Positions 57,351 through 64,000 of a stretch of 64,000 nt of DNA are shown here, one piece after another. Positions within the stretch are counted from its first letter, which is position 1, and every line of letters begins with the position of its first letter. Position numbers and translations under genes: made by a program. The notes under the pieces are model-generated. The model was not told where the DNA came from. It saw only the letters and a list, made by a program, of their open reading frames with translations, and did not search any database. The stretch is from Synechococcus sp. A18-25c (lineage in GTDB: Bacteria; Cyanobacteriota; Cyanobacteriia; PCC-6307; Cyanobiaceae): assembly GCF_014280035.1 (NCBI RefSeq), contig NZ_CP047957.1:1240001-1304000 (forward strand). Reading direction: 5' to 3'.

Positions 57351-59795
57351 TCACTCTTCATGTCGTAGAGCATCCTTTTGCATTCGCTCGATGCGTTCCA
57401 GCACGGATTCATTGCTCATGCGGTTATTGAGCCGCTCGACGAGCAATGGAAATGCCAGAGGGCCCGGCCGTGGAGTGGGGCAGTGCAAGACCTCGCCACT
57501 GCGCATGCGCATCAAAGCTTTGCGCAAGCGCGGCAGTTCCAGCTGGTCCTGCAGCACTTCATGCTGGGCCTGACGCACCAGCAGATTGTTGGGTTCGTGC
57601 TTGTTGAACACCTCCCACAGAAGCGAGCCGCTGATCTGGAGCTGGCCGGCGCTTTTGCTCTGCCCGGGGAATCCCTGCACCAGCAGTCCAGACACCTGGG
57701 CAATGCTGCGGAAGCGGCGGCGACACAGCTCGGACAGATTCAGTGCTTGCTCAAGATCCTGTTCAAGGTTGCTGTCATCGAGCAACACGTCCAAATGGTC
57801 CTCCAGCAGATCATCGAACGGGTAGCCGCGTGGTGCCAGCAATTCAAAGCCGTAATCATTCACCGACACCGTGATCGTGCCGCGATGAATTCGGGTGAGA
57901 CGCGTGGCCCAGAGGAATCCCAGCCCTTCATGCACAAACCTTCCTTCAAAGGGATAGGCGTAGAGGTGCATGCCTTCACGGGTTCGGCAGGTTTCCAACA
58001 GCAGCTGATCGCTGTCGGGCAGCGTTGATAGATCCATCTGACGCTCGAACAACGGTTCCAGTGCCTTTAGCTCTGGTGTGTCGAGGTCTCCCCGTCCGGC
58101 CCGCGCGACTTCATCGCGCAGATGGTGGGTCAGTAGATCAGACAGTGACATCTGGCCACCGGCCCAGGCGGGCACCGCGGTGCTCTTGCGTGTGGAGGCC
58201 TTCACGTAGGCCGTCATCTCCCGCAGCCTCACAAATTCCAGCTGCCTGCCGGCGAAGAAGAACACATCCTTCGGCTTCAGCTGGCTGATGAACGTTTCTT
58301 CCACGTGACCCAGCACCGCGCCACGAATGAAGCGCACGCGAATGGCCGGAGCGGAGGTGATGGTGCCGATGTTGAGGCGATGCAACCGTGCGATGGCCTT
58401 TTCGCGCACCACATACCGGCCGTGCTCGTCGTGCTCCAGTTTTCGGTAGCGCGGGTAAGCACCGAGGCAATCGCCGCCGTGCTCGAGAAAGCGCAGACAC
58501 CACTGCCAGTCCTCGTCTCTCAGCTCGGAGTAGCTCGATGTGCGTCGTATCGCCTCGAGGGTGCGTTGGGGCTCGAAGCCTGGGCCGCAGGCGAGGGTGG
58601 TGAGGTGTTGGAGCAACACATCGAGTGGCGCATGTGGTGGTCGTCGCTCCTCTACCAAGCCGTTGTCCAGACCGCGGCGAACGGCGCTGAGTTCCAATAG
58701 CTCCAAGGCATTGGTCGGCATGAACAGCACCTGGGAGGTGCCTCCTGGTAAGTGGGCGGACCGGCCAGCCCGTTGCAGCAGTCGTGCCAGATTTTTCGGG
58801 GAGCCGATCTGCACGACCCGTTCTACGGGTTGAAAGTCAACGCCTAAGTCCAGCGAGCTGGTGCAAACCACCCAAAGCATCGAGCCGGCCTTCACGGAGG
58901 CTTCAATGGCTTCGCGCTCGGCACGATCGAGAGCACTGTGATGCAGTGCCAGCAAGCCCTCCATTTCGGGGCAGGCGTAGCGCAAACACTGAAACCAACG
59001 TTCAGCTTGGTTGCGCGTGTTGGTGAACAGCAGTGTGCTGGTGCAGGGCTCCAGTTGGCCCACCAGATCCTCATAGCGACGTAGGCCCAGGTGGCCGCCC
59101 CAGGGGAAACCGTCGATGCTGTCCGGAAGAATGCTGGTCACGCTGAGACCGCGCTTCGGTGCGCCTGTGATGAAGCAGGGATCTCCACCTGCGCCGAGTG
59201 CATGTTGCGCAGCCTCCTCCAGGTTGCCGATCGTGGCGCTGATGGCCCAGGTTTGTAGGGATGGGCGTTGCTGTCGCAGCCAGCTGAGCCCCAGTTCCGT
59301 CTGAATGCCTCGTTTTGAGCCAATCAACTCGTGCCATTCATCGAGAATGACCGTTTCCAGCGTTTGAAATAGACGTTCGCAATGGCGACCGGCCAGAAGG
59401 ACGCACAGTGACTCTGGTGTGGTGATCAGGATCTCTGGTGGGGATTTGAGTTGCCGGCTGCGTTCGCTGGTGTTGGTGTCTCCGTTGCGGATGCCCACCC
59501 GTAACGGCCAGGCCATCGCATCAATGGGTTGCTGCAGCGCCAGCGCTAGATCCCGACTGAGTGCCCGTAGCGGTGTGATGTAGAGAAGCCTGACGCCTCG
59601 GATCTCGCTTGGCGACGCCAGCATGCGCGCGATAGAACCCATCACGGCGGCGTAGGTTTTGCCGGACCCTGTGGGCACCTGAATCAAACCGCTTCGGCCC
59701 GCCAGATGGGCTTCCCAGGTCTGTGTCTGGAAGGGAAGTGGAGTCCATCCCTGCTGGTCAAACCAGCGATGGATTGGTTGAAGAACGTCGTTCAG
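57351..59795 (-). CDS. Ligase-associated DEXH-box helicase (Lhr-like)
   Basis: This 814-residue SF2 helicase has IQVPTGSGKTYAAVMGSIARML (motif I), LLYITPLRALSRDLA, ITTPESLCVLL, DEWHELIGSKRG (DEWH motif II), SATIGN (III), LLFTNTRNQAERWFQCL, and QIGSPKNLARLLQRAGRSAHLPGG (VI), then the Lhr-type C-terminal domain. It belongs to the ligase-associated DNA damage response set with PdeM. The first ATG/GTG/TTG (TTG 59687) would remove residues before the P-loop. Upstream codons reading LNDVLQPIHRWFDQQGWTPL plus PFQTQTWEAHLAG are clearly coding. The only fitting start is a CTG at 59795 that overlaps the DUF350 stop as CTGA. Confidence 0.93.
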   Translation of the reverse strand: MNDVLQPIHRWFDQQGWTPLPFQTQTWEAHLAGRSGLIQVPTGSGKTYAAVMGSIARMLASPSEIRGVRLLYITPLRALSRDLALALQQPIDAMAWPLRVGIRNGDTNTSERSRQLKSPPEILITTPESLCVLLAGRHCERLFQTLETVILDEWHELIGSKRGIQTELGLSWLRQQRPSLQTWAISATIGNLEEAAQHALGAGGDPCFITGAPKRGLSVTSILPDSIDGFPWGGHLGLRRYEDLVGQLEPCTSTLLFTNTRNQAERWFQCLRYACPEMEGLLALHHSALDRAEREAIEASVKAGSMLWVVCTSSLDLGVDFQPVERVVQIGSPKNLARLLQRAGRSAHLPGGTSQVLFMPTNALELLELSAVRRGLDNGLVEERRPPHAPLDVLLQHLTTLACGPGFEPQRTLEAIRRTSSYSELRDEDWQWCLRFLEHGGDCLGAYPRYRKLEHDEHGRYVVREKAIARLHRLNIGTITSAPAIRVRFIRGAVLGHVEETFISQLKPKDVFFFAGRQLEFVRLREMTAYVKASTRKSTAVPAWAGGQMSLSDLLTHHLRDEVARAGRGDLDTPELKALEPLFERQMDLSTLPDSDQLLLETCRTREGMHLYAYPFEGRFVHEGLGFLWATRLTRIHRGTITVSVNDYGFELLAPRGYPFDDLLEDHLDVLLDDSNLEQDLEQALNLSELCRRRFRSIAQVSGLLVQGFPGQSKSAGQLQISGSLLWEVFNKHEPNNLLVRQAQHEVLQDQLELPRLRKALMRMRSGEVLHCPTPRPGPLAFPLLVERLNNRMSNESVLERIERMQKDALRHEE

Positions 59796-60001
59796 ATCAG
59801 AATCACCGTGACGACGACTGCGGAAACGGCCAACACAACTGAGCCCACGACCACCCCTGCCGCCACATTGCCCTTGCGAACCTCAGCGCGGTAATCGAGG
59901 GGTGTAAGGCGATCAAAGAACCAGACACCGCCCACGATGAGCAGGATTCCTGCCACCGTCCACATCAGGCTCAGCATCAACTGGATGAGGGTTGCCTGCA
60001 T
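59792..60001 (-). CDS. DUF350-family small membrane protein
   Basis: This 69-residue protein has two hydrophobic helices (LIQLMLSLMWTVAGILLIVG and AAGVVVGSVVLAVSAVVVTVIL) separated by FFDRLTPLDYRAEVRKGNVAAG, the DUF350 signature. The ATG at 60001 is preferred over a longer start. DUF350 proteins are often encoded beside DUF4178 and polyamine-type enzymes; both occur here on the other strand. Only 47 bases separate the divergent starts. Confidence 0.85.
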   Translation of the reverse strand: MQATLIQLMLSLMWTVAGILLIVGGVWFFDRLTPLDYRAEVRKGNVAAGVVVGSVVLAVSAVVVTVILI

Positions 60002-60048
60002 GGGTGAGGCTGCATGACTGGCGTAATTTAAGCGGCAGTGTTCTGCCG

Positions 60049-61137
60049 ATGGTCGTGTCAGGGTCGCCACCGGTGGGTCGTCGCGTGATGTTGGGTTGGC
60101 GAACCCGTGGCGTCTTCCCCTGGGCCCTGCTGGTGCTGATTTGTCCGCTCAGCCCTTTGCTGGTCCTGTTCATGGCCCCTGGTGGGACGGTCCAGGACCG
60201 GGAAGTGACCTTGCCGGCAGTGGATCGGGCGGTGACGACGCAACCGTTTGATTTCAAGAGCGTGAATGAGGCGGTGACGATCAAAACCGTCTTTACCCCT
60301 CCCGCAGGCACCCTTCTTTATCTCTCCACCGAGCTGCTGGATGTCAGCGGCAAGGTTGTGTTTCAACACGACATCGAGGGGCGGGATAGTGGTGGCGGTT
60401 CGCTGCCGGATGAAGCTGCCCTGTCGAGGCTTTCTCCAAGCGAGCGTCAGCGCCAGTGGATGCGAACACCGGACTACGCTCGACCCGCCAACGATCACAG
60501 CGTGAGCTTCCGTCCTGCAGAAGCTGGCTCGTATCAACTTCGTTTCCAGGTTTATCTGCCCCGCAATCAGGAAGGTGAGGCGATCCCGCTTTCAGACCCG
60601 GTGCTGGTCCGCACCAGAGTGAGCACAACGCCTGTGGATCGCGGCCTGTTGTTGCTCACCGTTCTGTTGAGCGGGGCTTCCTCTTGGATGTTCCTGTCCA
60701 AGGTCTACAGGCGTGGACGGATTCAATGTTTAGGCTGCTACGAATCCGTTGGTCATGCCGGTCGGGCTTCGCGCGGGGATTACAGGGCTGGCCTTCTGGT
60801 ATTGCGCGCGCGGGCTGCCTTCAGTCAGGGCTACCAGACCAACATCCAACAGGAGGCGAGGCAGTATTTGTTTGGCGTGCGCGTGACTGACGGTCGGGGC
60901 ACATTGCTGTATCGCGGCAGTGCTCCCGTGGAGAGGTCGACGGTGTCACTGACCGATTCCACACTCAACTTGCACCTTTTTCCGCAACTTTTCCAGCTCA
61001 CGAAAGACTGCAACCTTCGGTTTGATCTACTTCCACCGGAATCCACATCGACCCTGCAGTTCGAATCCGTGCACATTGAGCTGTGCGACCAGGTCATGCT
61101 TGCCTGGCCGCAGGAAGTCGTGAGGCTCGATCCATGA
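60049..61137 (+). CDS. Membrane protein of the DUF350/DUF4178 neighbourhood
   Basis: This 362-residue protein has a first helix (VFPWALLVLICPLSPLLVLFM), a beta-rich domain of about 180 residues (FDFKSVNEAVTIKTVFTPP, YQLRFQVYLPRNQEGE) and a second helix (GLLLLTVLLSGASSWMFLSKVY). A second soluble domain follows (FGVRVTDGRGTLLYRGSAP, LRFDLLPPESTSTLQFESVH). The family is unknown to me. The ATG at 60049 is preferred over a start at 59992, which overlaps DUF350. Its stop overlaps the next ATG (ATGA), so it begins a coupled four-gene run. Confidence 0.72.
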   Translation: MVVSGSPPVGRRVMLGWRTRGVFPWALLVLICPLSPLLVLFMAPGGTVQDREVTLPAVDRAVTTQPFDFKSVNEAVTIKTVFTPPAGTLLYLSTELLDVSGKVVFQHDIEGRDSGGGSLPDEAALSRLSPSERQRQWMRTPDYARPANDHSVSFRPAEAGSYQLRFQVYLPRNQEGEAIPLSDPVLVRTRVSTTPVDRGLLLLTVLLSGASSWMFLSKVYRRGRIQCLGCYESVGHAGRASRGDYRAGLLVLRARAAFSQGYQTNIQQEARQYLFGVRVTDGRGTLLYRGSAPVERSTVSLTDSTLNLHLFPQLFQLTKDCNLRFDLLPPESTSTLQFESVHIELCDQVMLAWPQEVVRLDP

Positions 61138-61451
61138 CCAGACTTCTTCTGCTGATGCTCACGGTGAGCATGAGTGCTGTGGGGATTTCGGCGGCTTACA
61201 CCAACGAAGACGTTCCTCAGATCGGTGCGCTTTTGCCTGCAACAACCGATGCACAGGAATCATCGATCGTCTTCCGTGGTTTCTATGGCGTGTCTGGTTG
61301 GAGAGCGGGCAGCACTAGGCTTGAAGCCAGCTCATTGGCGATTGGTCGGAATCCTTACGGCAGTTACAGCAGCTCTGGTCGCTACGGGGGATCAAGCGGC
61401 TACGGCAGCTATGGCGGTTTCTCCAGCGGTGGTGGATGGAGCGGCAAATAA
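61134..61451 (+). CDS. Secreted Gly/Ser/Tyr-rich small protein
   Basis: This 105-residue protein has a signal peptide (LLLLMLTVSMSAVGISAA). A folded-looking middle (SSIVFRGFYGVSGWRAGSTR) and a low-complexity Gly-Ser-Tyr tail (SYSSSGRYGGSSGYGSYGG, GGGWSGK) follow. It overlaps both neighbours: ATGA upstream and 16 bases with the aminopropyltransferase gene. The role is unknown; the tail suggests an envelope-exposed, flexible protein. Confidence 0.7.
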   Translation: MTRLLLLMLTVSMSAVGISAAYTNEDVPQIGALLPATTDAQESSIVFRGFYGVSGWRAGSTRLEASSLAIGRNPYGSYSSSGRYGGSSGYGSYGGFSSGGGWSGK

Positions 61452-63028
61452 CGGCTGCTGATCTCAGTCCCCTCCAAGTGAGGGTTCTTCTGGTCACTGC
61501 CATGGTTTCTTCGGCAGCTGGACTCGTGCTGGAGCTGTTGCTTGTGGCGCAGGCCAGTTATTTGATGGGGGACGCCACCTTGGCGACAGGGGTGGTGGTG
61601 GGCACGTTCCTTGCGGCGATGGGATTGGGAGCCTGGTTCACGGAGTTCATTGCTGTGAAAGGCCAGCCCCTGAATCGTTTGCTCAGAGCATTGGTGCTGG
61701 TGGAAATCACCCTCTGCCCGCTGTGCCTCTTTGGACCAGTCACCTTGTTCTTGCTGTTTGCGATCGGCGCTCCGTTATGGATCGCCATCGTTCTGCTCAC
61801 CTTGATGGTGGGCTTGTTGGGGGGCATGGAACTGCCCTTGATCACCCGCATGCTGGAAACCCAGGATCAGTTGCGGCGGGCGCTGGCCAGGGTTTTGGCG
61901 TTGGATTATTTCGGCTCGCTGCTGGGTGCTTTGGCGTTTCCGCTGGTGTTGCTGCCTTGGCTGGGTCTGTTGCCCACCGCGGCTGTGCTGGCGTTCGTGC
62001 CCGTCGGCGCCACCTTGGCCCTGGCGCTGGTGTTTCCGAGTTTGCGGCGCTGGCGCATTCCGGTGGTTGCGCTCCTACCGATCACGGGTGTGGCGGCGTA
62101 TCTGATCGCCCCCCTCGGACATCGCATCGAGGATGGCTTCTACGGCGCCAGGGTGATTGAGCGCCATCAAACGCGTCATCAGCGGATCGTGATGACCCGA
62201 CGTGGGGCGGATCTGCGCTTGTTTCTGGATGGGGACCTTCAGTTTTCCAGCTTGGACGAATACCGCTATCACGAAGCACTGGTGCATCCGGCGATGGCTG
62301 CTCATGCAGCGCCGCGCCACGTGTTGCTGTTGGGGGCAGGTGACGGCTTGGCGTTGAGAGAAATCCTGCGCTGGCCCAGCGTTGAACGGGTCGACGTGGT
62401 GGAGCTAGACCCTTTGGTCATTCGTCTGGCTAGACAACAACCCCAACTTCGACAGCTGAATCACGACAGTCTGGGAGACCCAAGAGTGACCGTGCACCTC
62501 GGTGATGCCTACGCCGCCGTGCGCAACTTCCAGCGACGCTTCGATGTGGTGATCGCTGACTTCCCTGATCCAGATACGTTGCCGGTGGCGCGGCTGTACA
62601 GCGTTGGTTTCTATGGCGCGGTGCGTGAGCGACTTAATCCAGGCGCCGTCATGGTCACCCAGGCCAGCGCACCATTTCTCACCCCCCGCGTTCTGGCCTC
62701 GATTCAGGCGGGACTGCAGCAGGCAGGTCTGCAGACCCGTCCGTACAGCGTCACCATTCCCACGTTTGGCCCCTGGGGGTTTGTCATGGCCAGGTCTGGT
62801 GCCTGGTCTCCGCAATTCCAGTCCATTCCATTTCCCACACGCTGGATCGATTCGGATCAGCTCGCGGCCTTGTTCGCATTCCCCAGAGACTTTCTGCCAA
62901 GCGGCTCCGATACTGTGCAGCCCAACCGGATGACACAGCCGGTTCTTCTTGACTATCAACGCGGCGATCGTCGCCGGCGGCTGCTCCAGCCACTAGCGCC
63001 AATCCCTTCCAACCCGAATTCCTCATGA
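61436..63028 (+). CDS. Membrane-fused aminopropyltransferase (spermidine synthase-like)
   Basis: This 530-residue protein has about seven helices in its first 240 residues (VLLVTAMVSSAAGLVLELLL, LATGVVVGTFLAAMGLGAWF, VTLFLLFAIGAPLWIAIVLL and others). A SpeE-like domain follows: FSSLDEYRYHEALVHPAM, VLLLGAGDGLALREILRWP, VDVVELDPLVIRLAR and VVIADFPDPDTLPVARLYS. The acidic FPDPD and YHEALVHP match aminopropyltransferase landmarks. Such membrane-fused proteins act on unknown amine acceptors. Its ends overlap both neighbours by 16 and 4 bases. Confidence 0.88.
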   Translation: MERQITAADLSPLQVRVLLVTAMVSSAAGLVLELLLVAQASYLMGDATLATGVVVGTFLAAMGLGAWFTEFIAVKGQPLNRLLRALVLVEITLCPLCLFGPVTLFLLFAIGAPLWIAIVLLTLMVGLLGGMELPLITRMLETQDQLRRALARVLALDYFGSLLGALAFPLVLLPWLGLLPTAAVLAFVPVGATLALALVFPSLRRWRIPVVALLPITGVAAYLIAPLGHRIEDGFYGARVIERHQTRHQRIVMTRRGADLRLFLDGDLQFSSLDEYRYHEALVHPAMAAHAAPRHVLLLGAGDGLALREILRWPSVERVDVVELDPLVIRLARQQPQLRQLNHDSLGDPRVTVHLGDAYAAVRNFQRRFDVVIADFPDPDTLPVARLYSVGFYGAVRERLNPGAVMVTQASAPFLTPRVLASIQAGLQQAGLQTRPYSVTIPTFGPWGFVMARSGAWSPQFQSIPFPTRWIDSDQLAALFAFPRDFLPSGSDTVQPNRMTQPVLLDYQRGDRRRRLLQPLAPIPSNPNSS

Positions 63029-63624
63029 GCGGACTGCTTTTTCTGCTGCTTGCCGCAGTGCTGGTTTGGTGGCTGACCCGAAACAGCATGGACAGGCGCA
63101 AAAAGCCCCGTCAGGGCGTTAGTCCTGAACAACGCACCCTGTTCAATCTCCAGGTGGGGGATGTTGTTCAGCGTGATCTGCGCGACTGGATCGTGGAATC
63201 GATTCTTGAATTCAATCAATCCGGTTTCCAATGGCGTGAGTATTACCTCCGCGATGGAGAAGAAGGCATTTGGCTCGTGGTGGTTGACGACGATCGTCTC
63301 GAACTGTCCTGGATGCGTCAGGTTCCATCCCATGAGATCTCGATTAATTTCCCCCTACGCGATCGACTCGTTTACGAAGGCATCAGTTATCGCCTTGAGG
63401 AAAAGGGACTGGCGCAGTACAGACGCATTTCGCGCAACAGCAATCAAGGAGGACCGTGCCGTTTTCACGATTATGTCGCTGAGGGTGGCCGTTTGCTCAG
63501 CGTGGAGATCTATGTGCAGGATGCTTCGGTCGATACCGGTGAAATTGAACTGTGTCTTGGTGAGCGCATCATTCCAGAGTCACTCAGCATTCTTCCTGGA
63601 GATGGACGCAGTGTTTACGCCTGA
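63025..63624 (+). CDS. DUF4178-domain membrane protein
   Basis: This 199-residue protein has a first helix (LLFLLLAAVLVWWLT) and then a DUF4178 domain: LFNLQVGDVVQRDLRDWIVE, FQWREYYLRDGEEGIWLVVVDDDRLELSW and LVYEGISYRLEEKGLAQYRR. DUF4178 is often encoded with DUF350 and spermidine-synthase-like proteins, from family knowledge. The ATG overlaps the aminopropyltransferase stop (ATGA). It ends the cluster within the window. Confidence 0.88.
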   Translation: MSGLLFLLLAAVLVWWLTRNSMDRRKKPRQGVSPEQRTLFNLQVGDVVQRDLRDWIVESILEFNQSGFQWREYYLRDGEEGIWLVVVDDDRLELSWMRQVPSHEISINFPLRDRLVYEGISYRLEEKGLAQYRRISRNSNQGGPCRFHDYVAEGGRLLSVEIYVQDASVDTGEIELCLGERIIPESLSILPGDGRSVYA

Positions 63625-64000
63625 GTTCATCGCGTGATCATGGTGATTGGCTCCTGCTCATTGCAGCCATGTGAAGGGAGCTCCACTGCGTTCTAGCCGT
63701 CAGCGGCTGTGTGGATGCTTCATGGCCAGGAGTGGTCAGACAGACGGGTCAAAGGATGGTTCCTATGGACCGAGACGGCGCTGCTGAATGAGGGTCTTCA
63801 GTGTAAGAACCCTGACTCCTCAGAGAAATCTCATCGATTTACTTGGTCTTTCGCAGACTGTTTCGATGTGGTTGAGAGCATCGTGGATACATCAACACAG
63901 GGCTTCAAAGCCTGGTTTAACGATGTCACAAATTCCAGATGTATTGACAGGATTAGAGCGATATCTTGAGAGGGGGATTGGTGGCGGAGAGCTTGTTGAG
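63625..64000. other. Right-edge region without a sure gene
   Basis: One open frame (63709-63969, 86 residues) has aromatic-rich, non-conserved-looking sequence and no clear start signal, so I do not call it. The last 30 bases are G-rich and may begin a gene that continues outside the window. Confidence 0.4.

Follow-up and report, generated by a model that had tools for sequence, protein, structure and literature searches.

The DNA analyzed here is a window of 64,000 nucleotides from Synechococcus sp. A18-25c (NZ_CP047957.1, positions 1,240,001 to 1,304,000), whose genome is a single 2.51 Mb contig. At window positions 59792-63624 it carries a cassette of five genes: DUF350, two genes designated gene 2 (P2) and gene 3 (P3), a seven-transmembrane (7TM) aminopropyltransferase (SPS), and DUF4178. 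The five open reading frames (ORFs) were found exactly where the original prediction had placed them, and the compact unit with short overlaps that it had described was confirmed. DUF350 (59792..60001, minus strand; 69 residues, two membrane helices) is matched by PF03994 at E 3.9e-12 (46.8 bits versus a cut-off of 26). It probably starts at the ATG at 60001, the ORF list giving an upstream GTG at 60070, and 47 bases separate this ATG from the start of gene 2. The other four genes lie on the plus strand and overlap by 4 bases (61134-61137), 16 bases (61436-61451), and 4 bases (63025-63028). Gene 2 (60049..61137) encodes 362 residues, predicted by AlphaFold to form a helix, a beta-sandwich ectodomain, a second helix, and a second beta-rich domain. 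Gene 3 (61134..61451) encodes an exported Gly/Ser/Tyr-rich tail protein of 105 residues with the end ..GGGWSGK. DUF4178 (63025..63624; 199 residues) consists of an N-terminal helix and a domain predicted to be cytoplasmic (PF13785, E 1.6e-30, 106.4 bits versus a cut-off of 25). Neither gene 2 nor gene 3 scores above any Pfam or NCBIfam cut-off, in agreement with the statement that two of the proteins belong to no known family.

The SPS gene (61436..63028, plus strand; 530 residues) encodes a member of the polyamine aminopropyltransferase family NF002956/PRK03612 (543.6 bits versus a curated cut-off of 472). The AlphaFold model, built with 67 sequences, has a predicted local distance difference test score (pLDDT) of 93.2 and a predicted template modelling score (pTM) of 0.86, and shows seven long helices followed by the catalytic domain, as had been anticipated for a seven-helix enzyme. 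The membrane domain comprises residues 12-236 (61469..62143) and includes the invariant acids E33, E132, and D157, while the aminopropyltransferase domain comprises residues 239-512 (62150..62971) and superimposes in prediction on the Thermus aminopropyltransferase 3anx (VIA-align Z 34.9, root-mean-square deviation (rmsd) 2.1, 279 residues aligned). The motifs of the enzyme are conserved. The donor-site motif GxG(D/E)G occurs in the window as GAGDG and the catalytic motif DxxDP as DFPDP (a DxPDP form), and D375, P377, D378, and P379 are invariant in the 67 SPS sequences. Position 303, the donor-site acid, was compared in 93 enzymes and is D in 92 of them and E in one. A charge count over the predicted loops, based on the positive-inside rule, predicts the same orientation for all 93, with an internal N-terminus and an external catalytic domain. 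In one cyanobacterial genome, G119 (L056, 6604-7937), the membrane aminopropyltransferase gene is split by about 1.3 kb.

The C-terminal lysine of gene 3 (codon 61446..61448, plus strand), the proposed acceptor, is conserved. All seven versions of gene 3 within the genus end in this residue (7/7), and among 80 named loci that carry the enzyme (the best 80 of 547) the exported partner ends in lysine in 70, a count made by eye with the pattern already known. The last two residues are usually GK or HK, and the remaining sequence varies greatly. The 70 cases comprise 39 found near the enzyme by rule, 15 found by rule at other operon positions, 11 found by a looser rule, and five further loci (L150, L078, L085, L116, and L120). 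Judged by the titles of their records, they span about eleven phyla, including Cyanobacteriota, Bacteroidota, Bacillota, Gemmatimonadota, Acidobacteriota, Fibrobacterota, Pseudomonadota, Campylobacterota, Desulfobacterota, Myxococcota, and Elusimicrobiota. Ten loci have no such tail (L082, L092, L102, L105, L108, L119, L126, L147, L149, and L151), and in eight of these DUF350 and DUF4178 were likewise not detected within the stretch.

Two counts over the 80 loci bear on the specificity of the residue. Terminal lysine was found in 25 of 25 small membrane ORFs ending at most 1 kb upstream of the enzyme and on its strand, versus 14 of 182 elsewhere. The filter (35-130 residues, an early membrane segment, and no overlap with larger genes) ignores the last residue but was set after the pattern had been seen, and two of the 25 ORFs look spurious (L081, 50 residues; L100, 36 residues). 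The second count used a rule for Gly/Ser/His-rich ends, likewise made after the tails had been seen. Among 646 nearby ORFs, this rule returned 41 ends with lysine versus 22 with all other residues together, and two of the 41 look like chance (one each in L095 and L125). Elsewhere (5555 ORFs), lysine accounted for 17 of 198 rule matches; of these 17, 15 appear to belong to the operon at another position and two look like chance. In 57 tails the lysine is encoded by AAA (38) or AAG (19), and all three stop codons occur, which argues that the terminal lysine is kept at the level of the protein.

The tail also follows the type of enzyme. Outside the genus, 26 cyanobacterial genomes contain DUF4178; 18 of them have a membrane enzyme above the family cut-off and G119 has one in two pieces, and a lysine-ended tail was read in all 19. 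It lies beside the enzyme except in G062, G075, G088, and G092, where it is found with DUF4178 at another place. In G050, G058, G079, G127, G131, and G243, the enzyme begins directly with the catalytic domain and has no seven helices, and in none of these six loci was the tail found within the flanks of only 1.5 kb. In these genomes DUF4178 has a C-terminal membrane helix where it was read, and the three enzymes read closely have one or two predicted membrane segments in the C-terminal part. This variant without the seven helices (L220-L225) carries about 250 further residues after the spermidine-synthase domain.

The lysine-ended tail occurs on unrelated carriers, including small one-helix proteins, a DUF4247 lipoprotein (L110; PF14042, 46 bits), and, in a gammaproteobacterium (L153), a second lipoprotein beside the enzyme. 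Long DUF4178 proteins such as L087 and L099 also bear it, following a single C-terminal membrane helix, and the DUF4178 versions of Snodgrassella have three helices before the tail. The carriers are predicted to place the tail outside, either by means of a signal peptide or a lipobox or because the helices that follow DUF4178 are odd in number. For the long carriers, the lysine ends would be outside if DUF4178 is cytoplasmic, as is predicted by Ravi et al. 2024 (PMC11237479). In L061 (2107-5578; relatives L062-L064), the next gene after those for DUF4178, a lysine-tailed protein, and DUF350 encodes 800 residues and contains a Peptidase_S49 domain of the SppA type (PF01343, 249 bits).

Our preferred reading, over which we remain almost evenly divided, is that SPS aminopropylates the C-terminal lysine of the tail outside the cytoplasm and that the cassette is a membrane modification system. 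Briefly, helix 7 of SPS would bring the catalytic domain out to the external face, within reach of the flexible tail, and SPS would move aminopropyl groups from decarboxylated S-adenosylmethionine (dcSAM) onto the C-terminal lysine, giving the tail a tip that resembles spermidine. Provision of dcSAM or removal of the by-product may be further tasks of the seven-helix domain. DUF350 and DUF4178, joined in cyanobacteria by gene 2 with its GOLD-like ectodomain, may form a surrounding complex through which the tip is linked to envelope state. In favour of this reading stand, besides the lysine counts, the predicted outward topology and the donor-site acid of the enzyme, the separate soluble SpeE and the SpeD of the genus, and the precedents set by the fungal and E. 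coli enzymes described below. The original prediction, which had proposed the modification or sensing of amines or lipids, missed the conserved lysine; this residue points to a protein tail, instead of a free amine or a lipid, as a possible acceptor. Rather more doubtful is the general proposition that an outward-facing aminopropyltransferase acts on the C-terminal lysine of an exported tail in at least ten phyla, with the seven-helix domain bringing dcSAM outside.

Several points weigh against the modification of the tail. The reaction, the supply of dcSAM, and the physiological role are all matters that we infer, and we know of no source of dcSAM outside the cytoplasm. The topology is predicted, and for the long carriers it presumes a cytoplasmic DUF4178. 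The charge rule is weaker for the small carriers: in 16 of 25 the net charge before the helix exceeds that after it, in five the two are equal, and in four the order is reversed. L082 and L147 carry partner genes without a convincing lysine-ended tail, the sole candidate in L147 being an ORF that ends in GGK and overlaps DUF350 in another frame. G068 (91% complete), the last of the 26 DUF4178 genomes outside the genus, has the tail (L062), and no full-length membrane enzyme was found in it, the best enzyme matches reaching 117.6 and 109.1 bits, below the family cut-off. Finally, a parallel with Escherichia coli, in which YjfC and YgiC bear the RefSeq name peptide-spermidine ligase and their respective neighbours YjfM and YgiB end in GG, comes from only these two tail proteins, from which terminal GG would be generalized to a defining feature of the yjf/ygi system.

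An alternative is that the product is a free polyamine, either similar to spermidine or longer, which the enzyme would synthesize at or across the membrane, and that the lysine tail would bind as a regulator or pseudo-substrate. The catalytic domain of SPS is closest to true polyamine synthases, and the NCBI family is named polyamine aminopropyltransferase. However, all 24 good genomes of the genus already encode a soluble SpeE, the cassette carriers having it in addition to the membrane enzyme, whereas the membrane enzyme occurs in only seven of 31; a housekeeping spermidine synthase identity for SPS is therefore unlikely. SpeD matches 30 of the 31 genomes. Furthermore, a loop that reads PxFGxWG in SPS is two residues shorter than its counterpart VPMYPSGWW in the soluble SpeE of the genus (eight SpeE loci given, six usable), and presumably sits on the acceptor side. 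A free polyamine would also leave the fixed very last residue of the tail unexplained, and this alternative appears unlikely.

It is less probable again that the C-terminal lysine is an anchoring site chemically unrelated to the enzyme, for example one cross-linked to peptidoglycan by an L,D-transpeptidase. Such a bond is formed in Braun's lipoprotein, whose C-terminal lysine is cross-linked to peptidoglycan by L,D-transpeptidases, and a flexible, lysine-ended tail that is exported and held at its opposite end by a membrane or lipid anchor would suit it. YkuD transpeptidases match all 31 genomes of the genus, but they show no link either way, since they are equally present in the 24 genomes that lack the cassette. 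On the other hand, the tail tracks the 7TM enzyme, none being found in the six loci whose enzymes lack seven helices, and the tails of the E. coli relatives end in GG beside a peptide-spermidine ligase. Least probable of all is aminopropylation of a membrane lipid head group or a wall amine, with the tail protein recruiting or presenting the substrate, for which the membrane-embedded enzyme with its three invariant acids in the helical part and the GOLD-like ectodomain of gene 2 might speak, whereas the Pfam/NCBIfam scan gave no lipid-enzyme match for any cassette gene and the conserved terminal lysine would go unexplained.

With regard to distribution, the cassette is an all-or-none unit within the genus. 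Among 31 same-genus genomes, the host's own included, DUF4178 matches seven, and DUF350 and gene 2 match the same seven; a search with gene 2 over 60 genomes gave no match beyond these. Spermine_synth is found in 28 of the 31, and a second, membrane-type copy at the cassette occurs only in the seven carriers. The gene order is identical in all seven; tblastn recovered all five genes in six of them, and in G016 gene 3 was found by frame reading. More distant cyanobacteria keep genes 2 and 3, the enzyme, and DUF4178 together, mostly without an adjacent DUF350. The conservation of the genes as a neighbourhood, on which the original prediction had staked its case, was thus borne out. At the level of the phylum, only 27 of 291 genomes have a DUF4178 match, and therefore the cassette is not general in cyanobacteria. 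No plasmid match to the enzyme was found at E 1e-60.

By Pfam names, the cassette is flanked by genes for an Lhr-type helicase and an ATP-dependent DNA ligase in six of the seven carriers. The ligase gene was found in 27 of the 31 genomes. Of 21 ligase genomes without the cassette beside the ligase, 13 loci were read, including that of G016, which has its cassette elsewhere, and the gap between helicase and ligase was 126-319 bases in all 13. The ATP-dependent ligase also adjoins the cassette in Cyanobium L078 and L085, and loss from an old site is for this reason likelier than repeated insertion.

Profile searches assigned neither gene 2 (60049) nor gene 3 (61134) to a family, and for gene 2 structure prediction pointed to a beta-sandwich, possibly GOLD-like, in the ectodomain (residues 46-195; 60184..60633, plus strand). 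The AlphaFold model of gene 2, from 18 sequences, has a pLDDT of 78.7 and a pTM of 0.54. The best match of its ectodomain is the p24 GOLD domain (VIA-align Z 11.2, rmsd 2.8, 98 residues aligned), with protease-domain, viral capsid, and other sandwiches close behind at Z 9 to 11. Foldseek returned only low template modelling scores, mostly to viral capsids and ion channels, and at the sequence level no protein of solved structure matched DUF4178 or gene 2 at E 1. In hhalign, the ectodomain is related to the domain behind DUF4178 in the L060 fusion (probability 74, E 2.8e-5); plain BLAST of gene 2 against this fusion gave no convincing match (E 0.52). In L122, one ORF is matched by both the P2 profile (7e-6) and the DUF4178 profile (3e-4). 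Together, the L060 profile link and the double match in L122 lend moderate support to the view that gene 2 is a detached part of long DUF4178 proteins.

Seven neighbouring genes were scanned, and five gave matches: the Lhr-type helicase, the DNA ligase, NadA, a weak matrixin, and DUF819. The locus around the cassette (window 57351-59687 and contig 1304680-1306434) comprises the Lhr-type helicase, the ATP-dependent DNA ligase, a gene without a Pfam match that was judged by eye to encode a ligase-associated exonuclease, and then NadA. Beside the cassette, a gene at contig 1303788-1304546 (L065 9789-10547; partly in the window at 63788-64000) matches a matrixin metalloprotease at the cut-off (24.1 bits versus 24, E 3.8e-5), and among the compared loci only G021 shares it.

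The association of DUF350, DUF4178, and a spermidine-synthase-like protein with phage-shock-like relatives, which had been noted in the original prediction, is in the literature. Ravi et al. 2024 (PMC11237479) described an operon of a 7TM spermidine-synthase protein, DUF350, DUF4178, and a novel lipoprotein (Ctha_1186 domain) with PspA and CesT/Tir, and suggested that it monitors polyamines or the aminopropylation of other substrates. The cassette is indeed a conserved membrane unit, but to call it undescribed was too strong, because that paper covers the wider operon. What is added here is the terminal lysine of gene 3; a lysine tail was not found described in the open-licence literature searched, and neither the lysine nor an outward topology is mentioned in the accessible part of Ravi et al. 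Operons of DUF350, DUF4178, and the membrane aminopropyltransferase are widespread. A fixed terminal lysine on the exported partner, predicted to lie on the side of the catalytic domain, offers a concrete candidate acceptor. If the proposal is true, proteins would gain a further kind of modification and dcSAM a role beyond the cytoplasm, and the recurrence of polyamine enzymes beside phage-shock and SPFH genes would be accounted for.

The cassette resembles the second-group operon of Ravi et al. in clustering a 7TM aminopropyltransferase, DUF350, DUF4178, and an exported partner. It differs in lacking PspA and CesT/Tir, in having the extra gene 2, and in its divergent DUF350. A strict PspA-linked operon was rejected for the window, as genes for PspA and CesT/Tir were found neither among the five cassette genes nor among the seven scanned neighbours. 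In the 80 loci, homology probes detected DUF4178 in at least 65, DUF350 in at least 62, SPFH in at least 29, and PspA in at least four, and the wider family therefore shares a phage-shock/SPFH setting similar to that of PspA-YdjGHI in Bacillus subtilis, unlike the window cassette, which has neither an SPFH nor a PspA gene. In its accessible part, PMC8581546 covers the SPFH protein YdjI in Bacillus and names no aminopropyltransferase, and the words 'transmembrane' and 'MFS' were not found in that of PMC11107197.

A further comparison is offered by the fungal 7TM spermidine-synthase-like NHMT (AN4663), which methylates the N-terminal histidine of exported proteins, as reported by Batth et al. 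2023 (PMC10349129). Like SPS, it combines seven helices with a spermidine-synthase-type domain, and it acts on a terminus of exported proteins, just as the proposed acceptor of SPS is a protein terminus. However, NHMT uses S-adenosylmethionine (SAM) and lacks the acid of GxG(D/E)G, which was used in that study to separate dcSAM users from SAM users and which the bacterial family keeps.

There is also a likeness to yjfIJKLMC and ygiBC of E. coli, in which an exported protein with a Gly/Ser-rich tail also lies beside a polyamine-attaching enzyme, the yjf operon having a DUF350 as well. GSP_synth, the ATP-grasp ligase, matches none of the 31 genomes of the genus. With the same reserve as the general proposition above, modification of the lysine, of which no record was found in the literature searched, would be the counterpart of peptide-spermidine ligation in E. 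coli. The E. coli enzyme is an ATP-grasp ligase and its tails end in GG, whereas the tail in the window ends in GK. As an amine-ended tail is thus paired with an aminopropyltransferase and a carboxylate-ended tail, in the two E. coli cases, with an amide ligase, the comparison suggests one design, in which two chemistries serve to put a polyamine on the end of a flexible, exported tail.

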